A model generated the notes under the pieces. It saw only the letters and a list, made by a program, of their open reading frames with translations, had not been told where the DNA came from and searched no databases. DNA of 39,080 nt from contig JAQUDJ010000015.1 of the NCBI GenBank assembly GCA_028685755.1, forward strand, positions 1 through 39,080, in the 5' to 3' direction. Each line of letters begins with the position of its first letter. Position 1 is the first letter of the stretch. Below are positions 33,358 to 39,061 of this stretch, in pieces. Position numbers and translations under genes: made by a program. The stretch comes from Eubacteriales bacterium (GTDB taxonomy: Bacteria; Bacillota; Clostridia; Saccharofermentanales; UBA5734).

Positions 33358-35847
33358 TTAATTTGCCGCTGATCCAATCTGTTGCCATTCAAAGACGTAG
33401 TAGGTGCCCGCGTAATCACCTACCCACAGCTCTTCCCGGTCGCCCTCGGAATAGCCGGCGGGAATTTCGGCAGAAATGGTATCGCTGATTGAAGATACAT
33501 TCTTATCGCTGTATTTCACCGAGGAATAAATCTCAAAAAAGGATTTGCCAGCCGTATTTGTAAATTTCACATTGCCCCAGTCGGCTCTGCAACTCCCATG
33601 TCCATCATAATAAGATAGATTTTGCTCGGTGAAAGCGAGGTCGAAGCTAAGATTGATCGTTTCCCCGCCCTTGATCTGCGCAGGTGGGACCGAGATGGAC
33701 AGTTGTGTCGCAAAACTTTCCCCATGGATCACATCAGGGTCGGGATAATCATCACTTTCGCCGATATACTTCCAACTGAAGGTATAGCTCCCTGGCGAGG
33801 CTGAAGCGCTTTTCTGATAGATTCCGCCCTTGTTTGTGTTGTCGACATCCGCTTGACGTGTTTCGTGTATGGTCTCGACTAGCACCCAGGCGTAGGCTTT
33901 GTCTTCGGGCTGCTGTGATTCTGCCGCTGTGACATCTGGCTGTTCTAGTTTCGGTTCGTTCTCGCCGTGGCTGGACAGCAGGATAGTGGTGGTGGGATAT
34001 GCGACTTTGAATGGTATCGTCAGGGTTGGTGTATCCTCGCCGGGTTTGTACAGTTCCACGCTACCGGGGGAGCCTGACTGCATATGCCCGATGATGGTAA
34101 ACGAGGTGTCCATTTCGCCGCCCGCTGGCATTTTACCGCTCCAGTTTTTTGTGTTTGCACGGCTCGAAAGGGGTGCAAAGCGGACCGTATAGCCCTCATA
34201 TTGATAGTCTGCATCGCCTTCTGGCTGTTCAATAATCTGTACCTGAATTGTTTTGTTCAGCTCTTCTTTCAGGGCGCGAAGTTGCTTTTCAAATTCGCGT
34301 TGCGCTTGCTCCATGGCTTGACTCAGAAGATAATTCCGCGCTGAAGTCATGGGTGCCTGCAAGCGACTCAGAAGATGTTCCCGGTACTGTGCGGTCAGCA
34401 CCGCGCGGTCTTTTGTCCACTGTCTCTCGTCGAATGAATAGTTTAATCCGGACACGCCGGCTATTTCCTTGACCTTGCCGTAATCGAGGGTCCAGAAGCG
34501 GTCGCAGTAGCTGTCGATTTCCTGATTGATCAGCTGCTGCGCCATTTGGGGGTCATCCGCATTTTCCTTGAGTATTTCGATCAATATCTTGCGCCATTCC
34601 TGAGTGGACCGCATTGCCTCCACATCGTTGTAATACTGGTACACACCACCGAGATTTTCCAGCTTGAGCTCCATCATATCGCTCTGAACTTCTGACAAAA
34701 CCACATCGAACACGGCAATCGCGGCAAAACCCACCTGCAATGTAGCGGAGCCGAAATAGCCGACTGCGTTATTGGCAACATTTTTGACGAGATTTGCAAG
34801 GGTGCTGAGTTTACTTTGGTCGTCTGAGAAGTTGTAAGTGAAGTCATAGCAGGTCTGCACGGCGGCCAGAGCCAGCCCCAGGCGCTGCGTTCCTTTGCCC
34901 AACGCGTCGGCCAGTGCCCCTTCATACTGTCCACCGAGTGTCAGCGCAGTCAGCGCAGTGCCGGAGTTGCCCGTCACCGAGTTGACCGCAGAAAAACCCG
35001 CTTCAAAGGCAGCATTTCCGGGTTGCCCCTGCTCAGCTAGTTCTTGGATAACTTCAAAGGATTTGCCCGAATTCAGCAAACCTGCTATCGCATAGGTATC
35101 GGTGATGTAAGCTTTGCGGGTGTTTTCGTCTTTTACTTGAAATACCCCGTAAGTGGAGAGGTGCGTGGTGTAGATCAGCACCTGGCCATTTTCGGTGTCC
35201 ACCTCGTAGTAAACACCCTCCCATTCGCCGGTGTCTTGGTTGAAATATTTCGCACCGATGCACTCATTCTCCACACCGGACTCGGCATATTTAGCGTCAT
35301 AAGGAATGGCAATCGTAATCACATCATCGAAATTGGCTTGGTCATCAAGTGCAAAATCATAAGCCGTTACTTTGACGCCGTTATCCTGGTCTGTCTTTTC
35401 GGGGAGCTCCCGTATCATCAGTGTTTTATCCCCATCTAGGGCATACTCACCGAATTGAATAGTCACCCCATGCGCGGAAGCGGTTGGACTTTCCGGTGAG
35501 ACTGTTCGCGTCTGGGCTTTTGCCGCATAGTCCTGCTCTGAATAAGCAAAGGAACTGAGGTCACCGGTCATTCCATCTGTATTGGTCACCGTCTGGCCCA
35601 ATCTGGGAATAATGAAAGCCACTAATGCAATCACCACAATGACCGCCACGGCGGACAATAAAAGCTTCTTGGGTGGTTTCCCGGATGACGGCCTTGGATT
35701 TGCTTCCATGGGCGTTTTGTTCACTGATACGGATGGGGGTGTAATCAATGGCGATGCGACACCCGCCTGTGTGTTCGTTCCGCAGGAGCCGCAGAATTTG
35801 ATGTCGTCATTGAGTTGTGTGCCACAATTTTTACAAAATTTGCTCAT
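33358..35847 (-). CDS. Uncharacterised zinc-ribbon, membrane-anchored, beta-rich protein (829 aa)
   Basis: No named family recognised for the whole protein. Domains in order: zinc ribbon at the N-terminus (C5, C8, C19, C22; FCKNCGTQL ... FCGSCGT); Pro-rich linker; one membrane helix (about 61-81), with the ribbon predicted cytoplasmic and the rest outside; a beta-rich region (about 126-237) with a ZU5-like flavour (TAYDFALDDQANFDDVITIAIPYDA ... TTHLSTYGVFQV); a mostly helical region (about 240-535) ending in a coiled coil of Gln, Glu and Lys; a beta segment (536-615); and a C-terminal beta domain (about 652-823) from AWVLVETIHE to YYVFEWQQ. The 733-residue neighbour shares the last domain and general layout. 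ATG with AGAGGT upstream; 27 bp after that gene. Confidence 0.8.
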   Translation of the reverse strand: MSKFCKNCGTQLNDDIKFCGSCGTNTQAGVASPLITPPSVSVNKTPMEANPRPSSGKPPKKLLLSAVAVIVVIALVAFIIPRLGQTVTNTDGMTGDLSSFAYSEQDYAAKAQTRTVSPESPTASAHGVTIQFGEYALDGDKTLMIRELPEKTDQDNGVKVTAYDFALDDQANFDDVITIAIPYDAKYAESGVENECIGAKYFNQDTGEWEGVYYEVDTENGQVLIYTTHLSTYGVFQVKDENTRKAYITDTYAIAGLLNSGKSFEVIQELAEQGQPGNAAFEAGFSAVNSVTGNSGTALTALTLGGQYEGALADALGKGTQRLGLALAAVQTCYDFTYNFSDDQSKLSTLANLVKNVANNAVGYFGSATLQVGFAAIAVFDVVLSEVQSDMMELKLENLGGVYQYYNDVEAMRSTQEWRKILIEILKENADDPQMAQQLINQEIDSYCDRFWTLDYGKVKEIAGVSGLNYSFDERQWTKDRAVLTAQYREHLLSRLQAPMTSARNYLLSQAMEQAQREFEKQLRALKEELNKTIQVQIIEQPEGDADYQYEGYTVRFAPLSSRANTKNWSGKMPAGGEMDTSFTIIGHMQSGSPGSVELYKPGEDTPTLTIPFKVAYPTTTILLSSHGENEPKLEQPDVTAAESQQPEDKAYAWVLVETIHETRQADVDNTNKGGIYQKSASASPGSYTFSWKYIGESDDYPDPDVIHGESFATQLSISVPPAQIKGGETINLSFDLAFTEQNLSYYDGHGSCRADWGNVKFTNTAGKSFFEIYSSVKYSDKNVSSISDTISAEIPAGYSEGDREELWVGDYAGTYYVFEWQQIGSAAN

Positions 35848-35874
35848 TTAAACCTCTTCTTGGTCACTTGCCTG

Positions 35875-38076
35875 TCAGGATGTCGCTTTCCACTCGTAAA
35901 TATAGTACGTTTGAACACCCACAACGCCAGGGGATGCTGCGACACGGATAGCCATTCGATCGCCTGGCGCACCCGCGCCGATGGTTCCATAAACGGTGGA
36001 GGAGAATGTCTGGTAGTTGTTACTGGAGCTGGAAGTAAAGCTAGTTTCCCCATCCCGATCACTCAGATAGCCCGCACCTCCTTTTTGTTCGCCTGTCTCG
36101 TCGATCAAGAAAACTTGCGCCAAGCCCGTCCAGCCGCCTGACTGATTGGAATGGTCATTGTAAAGGTGCGAGACAATTAAGTCGATTGAAAATTCTTCAT
36201 CAGGATGGATGATTGTTTTAGATGGAGCAGTCCAGGTGACCTGTCCCGACTGACTGATCCCAGGCTTCATCCACACATCACCACTGCCCGAGCCGGTGTA
36301 GGTGTGGACAAACGTCGCACTGCCACTGCCTGCCGCGATGTCCAGCCGCCAGGATCCCTCTGTCTTCTTGTTCTGGGCATCGAGTTTAGCTTGCCAATCA
36401 TTGGTTTTGCTTTCCACAAAAACCCAGGCGAATTGATCGCCATCAGACAGTGTCTTCTGGCTTTTATAGCCCTTTTCTTCTAGCCAGGCAAAGAAATCCC
36501 CCCGATTTTTTGGTCCGAGGCTAATCCATTTCGCGATTGCTTCATTCAGGTTCGCTTCAGCACTGTCACCACTATTGAGCACCGGCATTTCCCCGCCAAA
36601 TAGATCGAGAATGTTCTTTCTGGCGGCAAACAAGGTTCGAAGCCGACTCTCGATATCCATGTCAAAGTCGAAGCCGAAGGTTCCTCGTTCCAATAGCAAG
36701 TCCCGCTTGAATCCCTCAATTATTTTCCCGTACTCCGCTTCTTTCACTTGGACAGCCTTCCCGCTGGCAAGGCGCTTTTCAAATGTTTTCCGCAAATTCG
36801 TTTCCGTTTGGCTCGCGATGCGACTGCTTAAAATTGGGTCTGAATCGAGCTCGCTTCTCGAGATGCCATTCACTGCGCAGTAATTGTTTTTTGCCTCATC
36901 TTGAAGTCGGATCAGATAACCTCGCATTTGGGTCGAACACATTAAAGCCCAGTCGTCATTACTGACTGAGCTGGCACCATCACCGGCATCTTTGATATAG
37001 TTTTTATAGGCCTCGTCCAGTTCATAGTCCTTCCAGCTTGCAATGCTGGCATCGATGATTTCCACGGTGCTTTGGTATGCTCGGCCAACAGGGAAATAGC
37101 CTATGAAGGCGGAGGCAAGTTCTTTCGTCGCATCGGTGTAATTGCCGTCTTTGAGCTGAAGGGCGCCTTTGACGAGTCCTGTTGCCACTGCCGCGCCCTT
37201 GCCCGTAATATTTTCCATCAGCGCGTCTTCCATCTTCAAATGCTGGATCAAGGCGTTTGCTGCCAGCTCTCCACACTTGACCCCAAAGTCTGCGACATCC
37301 CCTCGTTCAGTGGATACGAGGATCGTACCGAAATCATATTCTTTTGCAACTGAGCGCAACAATTTGCCTTTGACAGTTTCGTCAGAAATGCCCATTTTTT
37401 CAAAGGCTTCATTGAACGTTTCCATGACTTGAGCTGAAAAAACTGTTTCACGTTCCTCATCTTCCCAGGTTTGCACGGCCATTTTTTTGGTATAGAGCTT
37501 TATTTTTTCTGCTTCAGTCGGTTTTACTGCGGAAAAGAGCGAAAAATGGTCGGTTTCAAAGGTGATGAAGCCGTCGCTGATCTTTGTGTGATCGGGAAAC
37601 AGATAATCCCAATCCGCACCATTAAAATAAGCAGCCAGATAGTCATCCGCATTTTCTTTTGTGGTACGCAGCGACTCTGGAATTTCCAAGGTCACTCGAA
37701 CAGACCGGTCAAGAAAGACGCCATCCCCATCACCCGCTGTGATCTCCACCGGTGTTCCGATCCACTCAAATGCATTCGTTTGATACTGCTCACTATCGGA
37801 CTCTGAGAGGACGTTCATCGTCAGCGAGAGATCCTGTTCAACGGCATGAGCCGGAATTTCCAGCTGCCATCCGGTTTTTGCGCTGTCACCGACAGTTGTG
37901 TCCCTGTCAGAACGGACCACTTGCTTGACTGTCGAACCTTTTGCAAATGGCTCATCGCTTCCGTTGAAGAGCCGAGGTAGGATCATAACCCCGACTGCGA
38001 TGATTAGGAAACCGGCGATGATAGGAAATAGCATGTTTCGGGTCAATTGTCCACGTTTCACATCAATTTTGTTCAT
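35875..38076 (-). CDS. Uncharacterised membrane-anchored beta-rich protein (733 aa), partner/paralogue
   Basis: Not a recognised family. One N-terminal membrane helix (about 14-34) without a zinc ribbon; a ZU5-like beta region (about 68-185: GWQLEIPAHAV ... RSVRVTLEIPESL ... YLAAYFNGADWDYL ... ITFETDHFSLFSAV); a long helical region (about 188-495), with no membrane segment, containing the repeated small-residue stretch TGKGAAVATGLVKGALQL; and a C-terminal beta domain (about 549-731), AWVFVESKTNDW ... YYIYEWKAT, matching the last domain of the 829-residue neighbour. Both thus share order TM, ZU5-like, helical, beta. ATG with AAAGGAG upstream. Middle gene of a three-gene minus-strand operon. 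Function unknown; a surface or cell-envelope assembly is the natural guess from topology. Confidence 0.8.
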   Translation of the reverse strand: MNKIDVKRGQLTRNMLFPIIAGFLIIAVGVMILPRLFNGSDEPFAKGSTVKQVVRSDRDTTVGDSAKTGWQLEIPAHAVEQDLSLTMNVLSESDSEQYQTNAFEWIGTPVEITAGDGDGVFLDRSVRVTLEIPESLRTTKENADDYLAAYFNGADWDYLFPDHTKISDGFITFETDHFSLFSAVKPTEAEKIKLYTKKMAVQTWEDEERETVFSAQVMETFNEAFEKMGISDETVKGKLLRSVAKEYDFGTILVSTERGDVADFGVKCGELAANALIQHLKMEDALMENITGKGAAVATGLVKGALQLKDGNYTDATKELASAFIGYFPVGRAYQSTVEIIDASIASWKDYELDEAYKNYIKDAGDGASSVSNDDWALMCSTQMRGYLIRLQDEAKNNYCAVNGISRSELDSDPILSSRIASQTETNLRKTFEKRLASGKAVQVKEAEYGKIIEGFKRDLLLERGTFGFDFDMDIESRLRTLFAARKNILDLFGGEMPVLNSGDSAEANLNEAIAKWISLGPKNRGDFFAWLEEKGYKSQKTLSDGDQFAWVFVESKTNDWQAKLDAQNKKTEGSWRLDIAAGSGSATFVHTYTGSGSGDVWMKPGISQSGQVTWTAPSKTIIHPDEEFSIDLIVSHLYNDHSNQSGGWTGLAQVFLIDETGEQKGGAGYLSDRDGETSFTSSSSNNYQTFSSTVYGTIGAGAPGDRMAIRVAASPGVVGVQTYYIYEWKATS

Positions 38077-38090
38077 GATTGACGCTCCTT

Positions 38091-38146
38091 TTGACCAATC
38101 CTCTGGATGATCGGTCTTCTGGCAATATGATCGGTTCTTTGGTCAA
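38091..38146 (-). repeat. Direct and inverted repeats in the 81-bp gap of the three-gene operon
   Basis: ATGATCGGTCTTCTGG (38107-38122) and ATGATCGGTTCTTTGG (38127-38142) agree at 14 of 16 positions, 20 bp apart, and lie between inverted arms TTGACCAA (38091-38098) and TTGGTCAA (38139-38146). Possible regulatory or mRNA-stability element ahead of the 733-residue gene. Confidence 0.45.
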
Positions 38147-38157
38147 TAGTTTTCAGC

Positions 38158-38763
38158 TTATTTTAACAATGGGCACCCGCATCGAAAGCATTGATCATCG
38201 CTTATCTCGCACAAAGTGCCACATGCGGCGCAGAAAATGATCTTGTCATTGGATTTGTCGAACTTCTCATAAGACCTAATCCCAGCATGGAATCGCACTC
38301 GATCGCCGATCTGATAATAATTAAATACCGTGTCGTCATCTTCGGCAGTTAATCGGTGGGTCTTACCCGTTTTATCTTCCCGGACTATAAGCGCATACTC
38401 GGTATAGTGGCGGGTATAGTAATCATCACCACTGCCAGTACTTTTTCGGTGTTCCTTTTTGGTAATCGTCTTATTTGCGACCTGTCCATCCCAAGTCTTG
38501 CTACGATTTCTGCCCACAATCTGCACTAAAGCGATGAGAACGAACATCCCTCCAATACCCAGGCCGATATAGAACGCTTGTGGATTCTCCATACCGTCAG
38601 CACCGGTTTCACCGGCGATCGTAAAGCCAACTATAGCGATTACAGCCAATATCAACGAGAACATTCCTGACCAGCGGTTGGCGTTTTTGACATATTTTGC
38701 AAAAGCAGGGTCGTTGATCCGTTGAGAAAACCCATCATTTCGCTGATCAGATCGATTTTGCAT
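38158..38763 (-). CDS. Uncharacterised two-helix membrane protein with C-terminal zinc ribbon (201 aa)
   Basis: Not recognised. A polar N-terminus (about 1-30) is followed by two membrane helices (MFSLILAVIAIVGFTIAG and FYIGLGIGGMFVLIALVQIVG), a beta-rich cytoplasmic domain (about 93-170: WDGQVANKTITKKEHRK ... YTEYALIVREDKTGKTHRLTAEDD ... YQIGDRVRFHAGIRSYEKFD), and a zinc ribbon of two CxxC pairs (FCAACGTLCEISDDQCFRCGCPLL). Start ATG with CAGGTG upstream. It is the first gene of a minus-strand operon with the two large beta-rich proteins. Its ribbon and that of the 829-residue protein would both face the cytoplasm, so the two may interact or share a ligand. Function unknown. Confidence 0.78.
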   Translation of the reverse strand: MQNRSDQRNDGFSQRINDPAFAKYVKNANRWSGMFSLILAVIAIVGFTIAGETGADGMENPQAFYIGLGIGGMFVLIALVQIVGRNRSKTWDGQVANKTITKKEHRKSTGSGDDYYTRHYTEYALIVREDKTGKTHRLTAEDDDTVFNYYQIGDRVRFHAGIRSYEKFDKSNDKIIFCAACGTLCEISDDQCFRCGCPLLK

Positions 38764-38781
38764 CGTTTTACACCTGCTGTC

Positions 38782-38837
38782 CTGATTTTTAATTATGCGG
38801 CGCTGATTTTTAATTGTGCGGAACTGATTTTATCGTG
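38782..38837. repeat. Tandem 21-bp repeats upstream of the three-gene operon
   Basis: Units at 38782-38802, 38803-38823 and a partial at 38824-38837, each starting CTGATTTT; the first two agree at 18 of 21 positions. Two helical turns per unit, 19-74 bp ahead of the start codon: possible regulator-binding array. Confidence 0.65.
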
Positions 38838-38854
38838 TGACTTGAAATGAAATG

Positions 38855-38880
38855 ATTATAAATAATTGTATTGTACAATA
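38855..38880 (-). promoter_or_regulatory. Promoter -10 and palindromic operator of the three-gene operon
   Basis: Minus-strand TATAAT at 38860-38855. The perfect 12-bp palindrome TATTGTACAATA (38869-38880) lies in the spacer/-35 region, where a bound protein would block polymerase. The -35 box itself is weak. The stretch 38881-39015 shows no gene I can support. Confidence 0.45.
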
Positions 38881-39023
38881 ATATCGCTATTTTATTCCAT
38901 TTTATGCTAATTATTGTGTACTCTTTGTCAAGAACATTCGAAAAGGGCTGCTCATTGACTAGCCCAATACATTTACTATGCGCATCCTTCCATTTAAGCT
39001 TACGCTTTCCAAAAAGTCTTTTA

Positions 39024-39061
39024 AAAGACCTGAAGGGCATTTAAATGCCCTTCAGGTCTTT
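39024..39061. terminator. Perfect 38-bp palindrome, probable strong terminator at the right edge
   Basis: Arms 39024-39042 and 39043-39061 are exact reverse complements (AAAGACCTGAAGGGCATTT and its complement). On the minus strand it is followed by TTTTAAAAGACTTTTT. It overlaps a second palindrome GTCTTTTAAAAGAC (39016-39029). Likely ends a minus-strand gene beyond the window. Confidence 0.75.

Follow-up and report, generated by a model that had tools for sequence, protein, structure and literature searches.

Self-cleavage by GAIN and ZU5 domains is central to inflammasome proteins and to the adhesion receptors of animals. In GAIN domains the cut is made by a His that deprotonates a Ser or Thr, which then attacks the preceding peptide bond (PMC13062082). 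Zhang et al. 2012 predict that ZU5 domains in surface proteins of bacteria are autoproteolytic (PMC3482391). Bacterial ZU5/GAIN relatives have been predicted, but no test of their cleavage was found in the literature searched. In RsgI of Clostridia a different autocleaving domain beside the membrane starts transmembrane signalling (PMC12203970), and in Eggerthella, multi-helix or 12-transmembrane (12-TM) LuxR proteins are known to act as activators (PMC9734109). The locus described here is on contig JAQUDJ010000015.1 (assembly GCA_028685755.1) of an uncultured, Clostridia-like Eubacteriales bacterium, and the 39,080 nt that were analysed are referred to as the window. It consists of three closely spaced open reading frames (ORFs) on the minus strand, p201, p733 and p829, with lengths of 201, 733 and 829 aa as originally described (Table 1). 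The gaps are 81 nt (p201-p733) and 27 nt (p733-p829), and a purine-rich, ribosome-binding-like sequence precedes each of the three starts.

The best explanation of the locus is that p829 and p733 belong to an envelope cassette of Clostridia and are surface receptors or binders that cleave themselves into two pieces and have zinc-ribbon partners on the cytoplasmic side; the probability of this reading is put at roughly 0.5. Both would be membrane proteins with the N-terminus inside and the C-terminus outside, and with a ZU5/GAIN-fold domain next to the membrane. After folding, the chain would cut itself between L230 and S231 in p829, or between F178 and S179 in p733. The inner fragment of p829 would then comprise the zinc ribbon, the TM helix and most of the ZU5 domain, and the outer fragment the last ZU5 strand, the helical region and the beta-sandwich, with the beta-sheet keeping the two together. 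The outer fragment may bind a partner or a polymer. If it is lost or displaced, that would be the event released or reported to the cell interior. p201, with two TM helices and a cytoplasmic zinc ribbon, would be the usual inner-membrane partner, and in many genomes a neighbouring 12-TM LuxR activator may switch the cassette on. The membrane anchor and topology, the fold class, the motif and its conservation, the paralogy and the gene linkage are computed; the direction of signalling we infer. Self-cleavage of p829 and p733 is judged about an even chance, and the case for p201 as a physical partner is similarly balanced. That the proteins sense, as opposed to simply adhering or serving as scaffolds, is a more tentative suggestion. 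An adhesion G-protein-coupled receptor (GPCR)-like logic in bacteria, i.e., cut receptors whose pieces are kept together and whose outer-piece removal is reported to the cytoplasmic zinc ribbons of p201 and of the inner p829 fragment, with the system under a membrane LuxR regulator in many genomes, is an unlikely extension.

The fold assignment comes from an AlphaFold2 model of p829, made from a four-sequence alignment. A Foldseek search with the ZU5 part of the model matched the ankyrin-B ZU5 domain (E 6.5e-4, probability 1.00) and the BAI3 GAIN domain (probability 1.00). The VIA comparison gave Z values of 10.8 for ankyrin ZU5A (132 residues, root-mean-square deviation 3.1), 9.6 for CD97 GAIN, 8.3 for BAI2 GAIN and 7.4 for UNC5b. 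Unrelated rows are interspersed with these, i.e., two axonemal entries at Z 8.7 stand between CD97/BAI3 and BAI2, and the best glycoside-hydrolase beta domains reach 7.6, so that it is the ankyrin and CD97 rows (Z 9.6-11.4) that rank over the unrelated ones. As modelled, the membrane-proximal domain has the ZU5/GAIN fold, which bears out the ZU5-like region named in the original prediction. This superfamily is defined by fold, and a missing match to the Pfam ZU5 or GPS models does not exclude membership.

The putative cleavage motif is situated between the last two strands of the modelled p829 domain, which span residues 222-229 and 232-238 and leave a break at L230-S231. In the end-anchored VIA alignment, residues 102..240 of p829 correspond to residues 691..921 of BAI2. 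H229-L230-S231 then falls on H910-L911-S912, the cleavage motif of BAI2 (PMC13062082), if the last ten residues are ungapped. The profile alignment of p829 with p733 places H229-L-S231 on H177-F-S179. Among 30 sequences with a median pairwise identity of 29%, the most conserved of the 144 ZU5 columns are W209 and T227 (100%), S231 (94%), H229 (88%) and Y201 (82%), but most of these sequences were located by the motif itself, which biases the values upward. Because of this bias a second set was taken, consisting of 29 class-wide profile matches, 28 of which reach the motif. Reading by hand shows H-[FL]-[ST] in 25 of the 28 (an automatic pattern finds 23, and HFS follows a different residue in two more). 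His is present in 25 and Ser in 24, and the T, S and H columns rank first among the aligned columns. All three are still in the top four when seven close relatives are left out.

Several points weigh against this two-piece reading. The p829 model has a mean predicted local distance difference test score (pLDDT) of 45 overall, and is good in the ZU5 part only (block means 50 to 86, residues 101-240). Sequence profiles gave no match to ZU5, GAIN or GPS models for 19 members at E values up to 1, and because of this the homology to ZU5/GAIN is argued from the fold. BAI2 carries HLS yet is uncut, and the aromatic residue that stacks on the His is absent there (PMC13062082); since BAI2 has the motif and stays intact, H-X-S/T by itself is insufficient for cleavage. 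Y201 is at best a candidate for this aromatic residue (GAIN S10.49), from its conservation (82%) and spacing. No 12-TM LuxR of the cassette family was found in the source genome, which is 96.6% complete and in which the contig of the window stops just upstream of p201. The regulatory part of the proposal is therefore inapplicable here unless the gene is in an assembly gap.

The uncut HLS of BAI2 (PMC13062082) also favours a different explanation, where ZU5 serves as a structural stalk that does not cleave, p829 and p733 are ordinary surface adhesins or envelope scaffolds, and H-X-S stabilises the turn before the last strand, as it would in receptors with uncut ZU5/GAIN domains. The closest fold matches are ankyrin ZU5 domains, which act as binding platforms, and the ZU5-like domain is common among surface proteins, being found in 69 of the 393 genomes surveyed in the class, often just before S-layer-homology-like tails. 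However, a generic turn hardly explains why His-x-Ser persists at < 30% identity, when nearly all other positions have changed. In five relatives (L032, L033, L110, L112 and L114) the His is lost and the domain profile still matches; from these sequences, His is therefore probably dispensable for ZU5 folding, which also counts against a purely structural role. A stalk of this kind is considered possible but not probable. Two of the five, L032 and L033 (genomes G174 and G166), have TRSFTPF and TRSCSPF where others have TDHFSxY. These large relatives of the ZU5-helical type, of which about 1,090 aa were read up to an open end at the locus edge, represent natural His-lacking variants.

In both p829 and p733 a TM helix is followed by the ZU5 domain, the helical region and the C-terminal beta domain, as had been predicted. 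Their C-terminal domains start with AYAWVLVE and FAWVFVE and end with YYVFEW and YYIYEW, respectively, and are related by BLASTP (E 1e-5 to 2e-4) and by profile comparison (E 6e-8). Comparison of 16 p829-type with 3 p733-type sequences by hhalign aligns p829 64-423 with p733 17-381 over 320 columns (probability 96.4, E 1.3e-9). A ZU5 profile built without p733 relatives fails alone on p733 (E 0.01 to 0.4), and profile-profile comparison is needed. By these sequence comparisons, p829 and p733 are true paralogues along most of their length. Hydropathy and charge predict that the zinc ribbon of p829 and both ends of p201 are inside and that the ZU5, helical and beta parts are outside; positive charge is found on the predicted cytoplasmic side of the TM helices of p829, p733 and p201 (residues 33-51 and 66-84 in p201). 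The extra N-terminal zinc ribbon claimed for p829 is above the Pfam cut-off, and the ribbons of p829 and p201 are both predicted to be cytoplasmic, in agreement with the original prediction. Only the zinc ribbon is above threshold in Pfam, NCBIfam and PADLOC scans of the three proteins, and no meaningful relative came up when the PDB was searched by sequence with p829, p733 and the ZU5 profile. The locus is, as first proposed, a conserved membrane-protein locus without a matching curated family.

The same layout of cytoplasmic domain, TM helix, autocleaving domain and sensor is present in RsgI (PMC12203970). By analogy, site-1-like autocleavage could lead to regulated intramembrane proteolysis, and the freed zinc ribbon of p829 could be an anti-sigma or transcription-modulating fragment. 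A DUF4179 match covers the TM helix and the start of the ZU5 domain, but its 21.7 bits are below the gathering cut-off of 30.1. This domain occurs in anti-sigma-type proteins. In the neighbourhoods read, both at the locus in the window and in the related cassettes, no sigma factor was recognised, as judged from ORF sequences with no family scan of every neighbour. In addition, many ZU5 relatives are lipoproteins without a cytoplasmic part, hence a cytoplasmic fragment cannot be the general output. An RsgI-type pathway is considered quite improbable.

The C-terminal beta-sandwich has no significant match in the PDB: the best Foldseek match has E 0.024, and the top VIA Z of 6.2 is in the range expected by chance; the Foldseek search had been proposed with the original prediction. 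No binding function is therefore assigned to this domain. It appears to be mobile and is without a Pfam match: a 495-aa protein at L003:706-2193 (G009) has the AWV...YEW domain near its N-terminus, together with a middle part that looks FecR-type. The nature of the distal part is relevant to a further explanation, that of toxin delivery or contact-dependent antagonism, where the ZU5 domain would free the distal part as in polymorphic toxins. ZU5 is described as a releasing autopeptidase of such toxins by Zhang et al. 2012 (PMC3482391). Here, however, the distal beta-sandwich is common to both paralogues and is not a variable tip, no toxin or immunity domain was found in p829, p733 or p201 by Pfam, NCBIfam or PADLOC, and neither RHS repeats nor an immunity gene were recognised beside the locus. 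A toxin role is considered very remote.

The proposed partnership of two-piece p829 with p201 is suggested by gene linkage. The 393 genomes of the class survey were scanned for the p829 core and p201. The core is present in 10 and the commoner p201 in 31, with both in 7 (7/10 core-positive vs 31/393; Fisher p ~1e-6); the Fisher test ignores kinship, and the seven both-positive genomes represent seven families. Core and p201 are adjacent on the same strand in five of the seven (G000, G242, G280, G325 and G404). In G321 both are at contig ends, and in G354 they are on different contigs. Adjacency is also found in L004, L005 and L047. Full-length p829 relatives with 77-78% identity are located right after a p201 relative in L004, from a Clostridia metagenome-assembled genome (MAG), and L005, from a MAG labelled Synergistaceae; the p201 relatives in L004, L005 and L008 are 60-66% identical. 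L006 has a 61% identical p829 relative with a decayed zinc ribbon, without p201 in the locus. The four sister species of the genus have neither full-length p829 nor full-length p733.

Two further observations concern these loci. The p201-p829 region of L005 is 64-77% identical to this Clostridia-like genome although the MAG is labelled Synergistaceae, which may reflect transfer or mis-binning. At L086:2486-4906 (G009 C152), a zinc ribbon-TM protein occupies the p829 position beside p201 but has a different outer domain with an HELMH metallopeptidase-like motif, i.e., the outer module of the protein in this position seems exchangeable.

The original prediction of a conserved trio did not hold. 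p733 is rare: no full-length p733 is found in the genomes of L004, L005, L006 and L008, one of which has just a C-terminal-domain match, and within the order p733 was found only in the source genome, G009 (29% identical) and G027. In related genomes p733 therefore occurs apart from the others, whereas p829 and p201 are found as a pair. The unit that is conserved consists of the p829 core and p201, and a 12-TM LuxR regulator and a membrane protein of ~172 aa often accompany it.

A wider cassette is seen on reading the neighbourhoods. In the recurring order, the 12-TM LuxR comes first, then the membrane protein of ~172 aa (F9), then at least one ZU5 protein of the lipoprotein or zinc-ribbon-TM type, and then p201. 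A 12-TM LuxR gene, mostly with F9, is beside ZU5, C-terminal-domain or p201 genes at 13 loci (L150, L151, L153, L155, L156, L158, L159, L160, L074, L085, L005, L008 and L049). The LuxR family is present in 5 of 186 genomes of the order, and 4 of those 5 carry ZU5 or p201 relatives. Some genomes have p201 fused behind another small membrane domain, and several cassettes contain an extra small protein starting MERFDTLLEAAEF. This LuxR-F9-ZU5-p201 cassette and its conserved H-[FL]-S were not found described in the open-access literature searched. The cassette appears to be decaying in three genomes, where genes for the core/C-terminal domain or for p201 are broken into several frames (L157:6851-8155 in G539, L153:11316-12195 in G325, and L158 in G548).

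The ZU5-like domain is directly before S-layer-homology-like repeats in L099, L103-L106, L109, L110, L112 and L115, and the motif is kept in most of these but not in L110 and L112. If such proteins are cut, the ectodomain would part from the wall anchor. A zinc ribbon-TM-ZU5 protein of 881 aa with EHFS is present in a cultured species, Acetoanaerobium noterae (L164:6545-9190, NZ_CP154629.1). This accession is filed as a plasmid, but at 2.6 Mb looks chromosome-sized.

p201 is the last gene before the contig end (39080), where the view of the upstream side stops. The perfect palindrome in this region is terminator-like and separates the operon from upstream DNA. Of the promoter, palindrome and repeat array originally predicted, the palindrome and the repeat are present; the promoter candidate is well placed, but there are 9 promoter-like matches in the region vs 7.2 ± 2.7 in shuffled sequence, a count not above chance. 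Outside the locus, the 21-nt repeat is matched once in the genome, with one mismatch, in a gene with a glycerol kinase-like start, and this is approximately chance level (a control pattern also gives 1 match). An Rfam scan found no RNA family. Two 20-nt direct repeats of the ATGATCGGTTCTTTGGTCAAT type are located between p201 and p733 (38107-38148). A phage origin was considered and is unsupported, as viral-contig scans gave no relative.

Table 1. Positions of genes, protein domains and DNA elements of the p201-p733-p829 locus in the window.
Feature	Position	Strand	Description
p829	33358..35847	-	829 aa; zinc ribbon, TM, ZU5/GAIN-fold domain, helical region, small beta segment, C-terminal beta-sandwich
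p829 C-terminal beta-sandwich AWV...YEW, residues 650-825	33373..33900	-	Modelled alone: pLDDT 75, predicted TM-score (pTM) 0.73, ten strands
p829 helical region, residues 241-530	34258..35127	-	From model, low confidence in detail; conserved in relatives
p829 ZU5/GAIN-fold domain, residues 111-240	35128..35517	-	Model block-mean pLDDT 50-86; Foldseek and VIA matches
p829 H229-L230-S231	35155..35163	-	Predicted self-cleavage motif HL/S, between last two strands; aligns with BAI2 motif
p829 TM helix, residues 62-80	35608..35664	-	Hydropathy 3.34; helix 62-82 in model
p829 zinc ribbon, residues 4-25	35773..35838	-	Cys C5, C8, C19, C22; Pfam PF13240 (Zn_Ribbon_1) 26.6 bits, cut-off 25
p733	35875..38076	-	733 aa; TM, ZU5-like domain, helical region, C-terminal beta-sandwich; no zinc ribbon
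p733 C-terminal beta-sandwich	35884..36435	-	Homologous to p829 C-terminal domain
p733 H177-F178-S179	37540..37548	-	Predicted self-cleavage motif HF/S; profile-aligned to p829 HLS
p733 TM helix, residues 15-33	37978..38034	-	Hydropathy
p201	38158..38763	-	201 aa; two TM helices, weak DUF7489-like cytoplasmic region, C-terminal zinc ribbon
p201 zinc ribbon, residues 178-197	38173..38232	-	Cys 178, 181, 192, 195 (plus 185, 197); Cys invariant in relatives
21-nt repeat, 2.4 copies	38782..38831		Between promoter candidate and p201; possible operator
Sigma-70-like promoter candidate TTGACA-16-TAGCAT	38904..38931	-	Position suits operon
Perfect 19-bp palindrome (inverted repeat)	39024..39061		Bidirectional terminator-like; fold z -7.3

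Compared with the GAIN domains of adhesion GPCRs, the domain described here is likewise a beta-sandwich by the membrane on the outer face, with H-X-S/T at the same structural position before the last strand and a conserved upstream Trp. It differs in that the TM helix precedes the domain (N-terminus in) and there is no 7TM region; a role as a tethered agonist is improbable, and cleavage is a prediction here. The ZU5 domains of ankyrin, UNC5, PIDD, NLRP1 and CARD8 (FIIND) include the best fold matches to p829 (ankyrin, Z about 11), and PIDD ZU5 has a motif of the HF/S type, as does p733. Those domains are cytoplasmic and eukaryotic and are often followed by UPA and death-type domains, whereas here the domain is predicted to be extracellular and a helical region follows. 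The ZU5 domains of bacterial polymorphic toxins and surface proteins, as presented in PMC3482391, are also bacterial, secreted or surface-exposed and predicted to be autoproteolytic; the proteins described here are without toxin, RHS or SpvB modules, are membrane-anchored and belong to a cassette with p201 and the 12-TM LuxR. RsgI and the SEAL anti-sigma factors show the same order of cytoplasmic domain, TM helix, autocleaving domain and sensor in Bacillota, but their autocleaving domain is another one and no sigma factor gene was recognised here. The cassette regulator resembles the DadR-family 12-TM LuxR proteins of Coriobacteriia (PMC9734109) in its long multi-helix membrane part and LuxR-type helix-turn-helix, a likeness of layout; it lies next to genes for surface proteins and not for metabolic enzymes, and it was not found in the source genome. 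The cassette offers a membrane-anchored bacterial ZU5 domain with natural His-lacking controls and a relative in the cultured Acetoanaerobium noterae, and bacterial ZU5 cleavage is therefore directly testable. Large unannotated surface proteins found in Clostridia also gain an assigned fold, together with a gene partner that is conserved. Both the fold family and the notion that ZU5 domains cleave in bacteria were already known.

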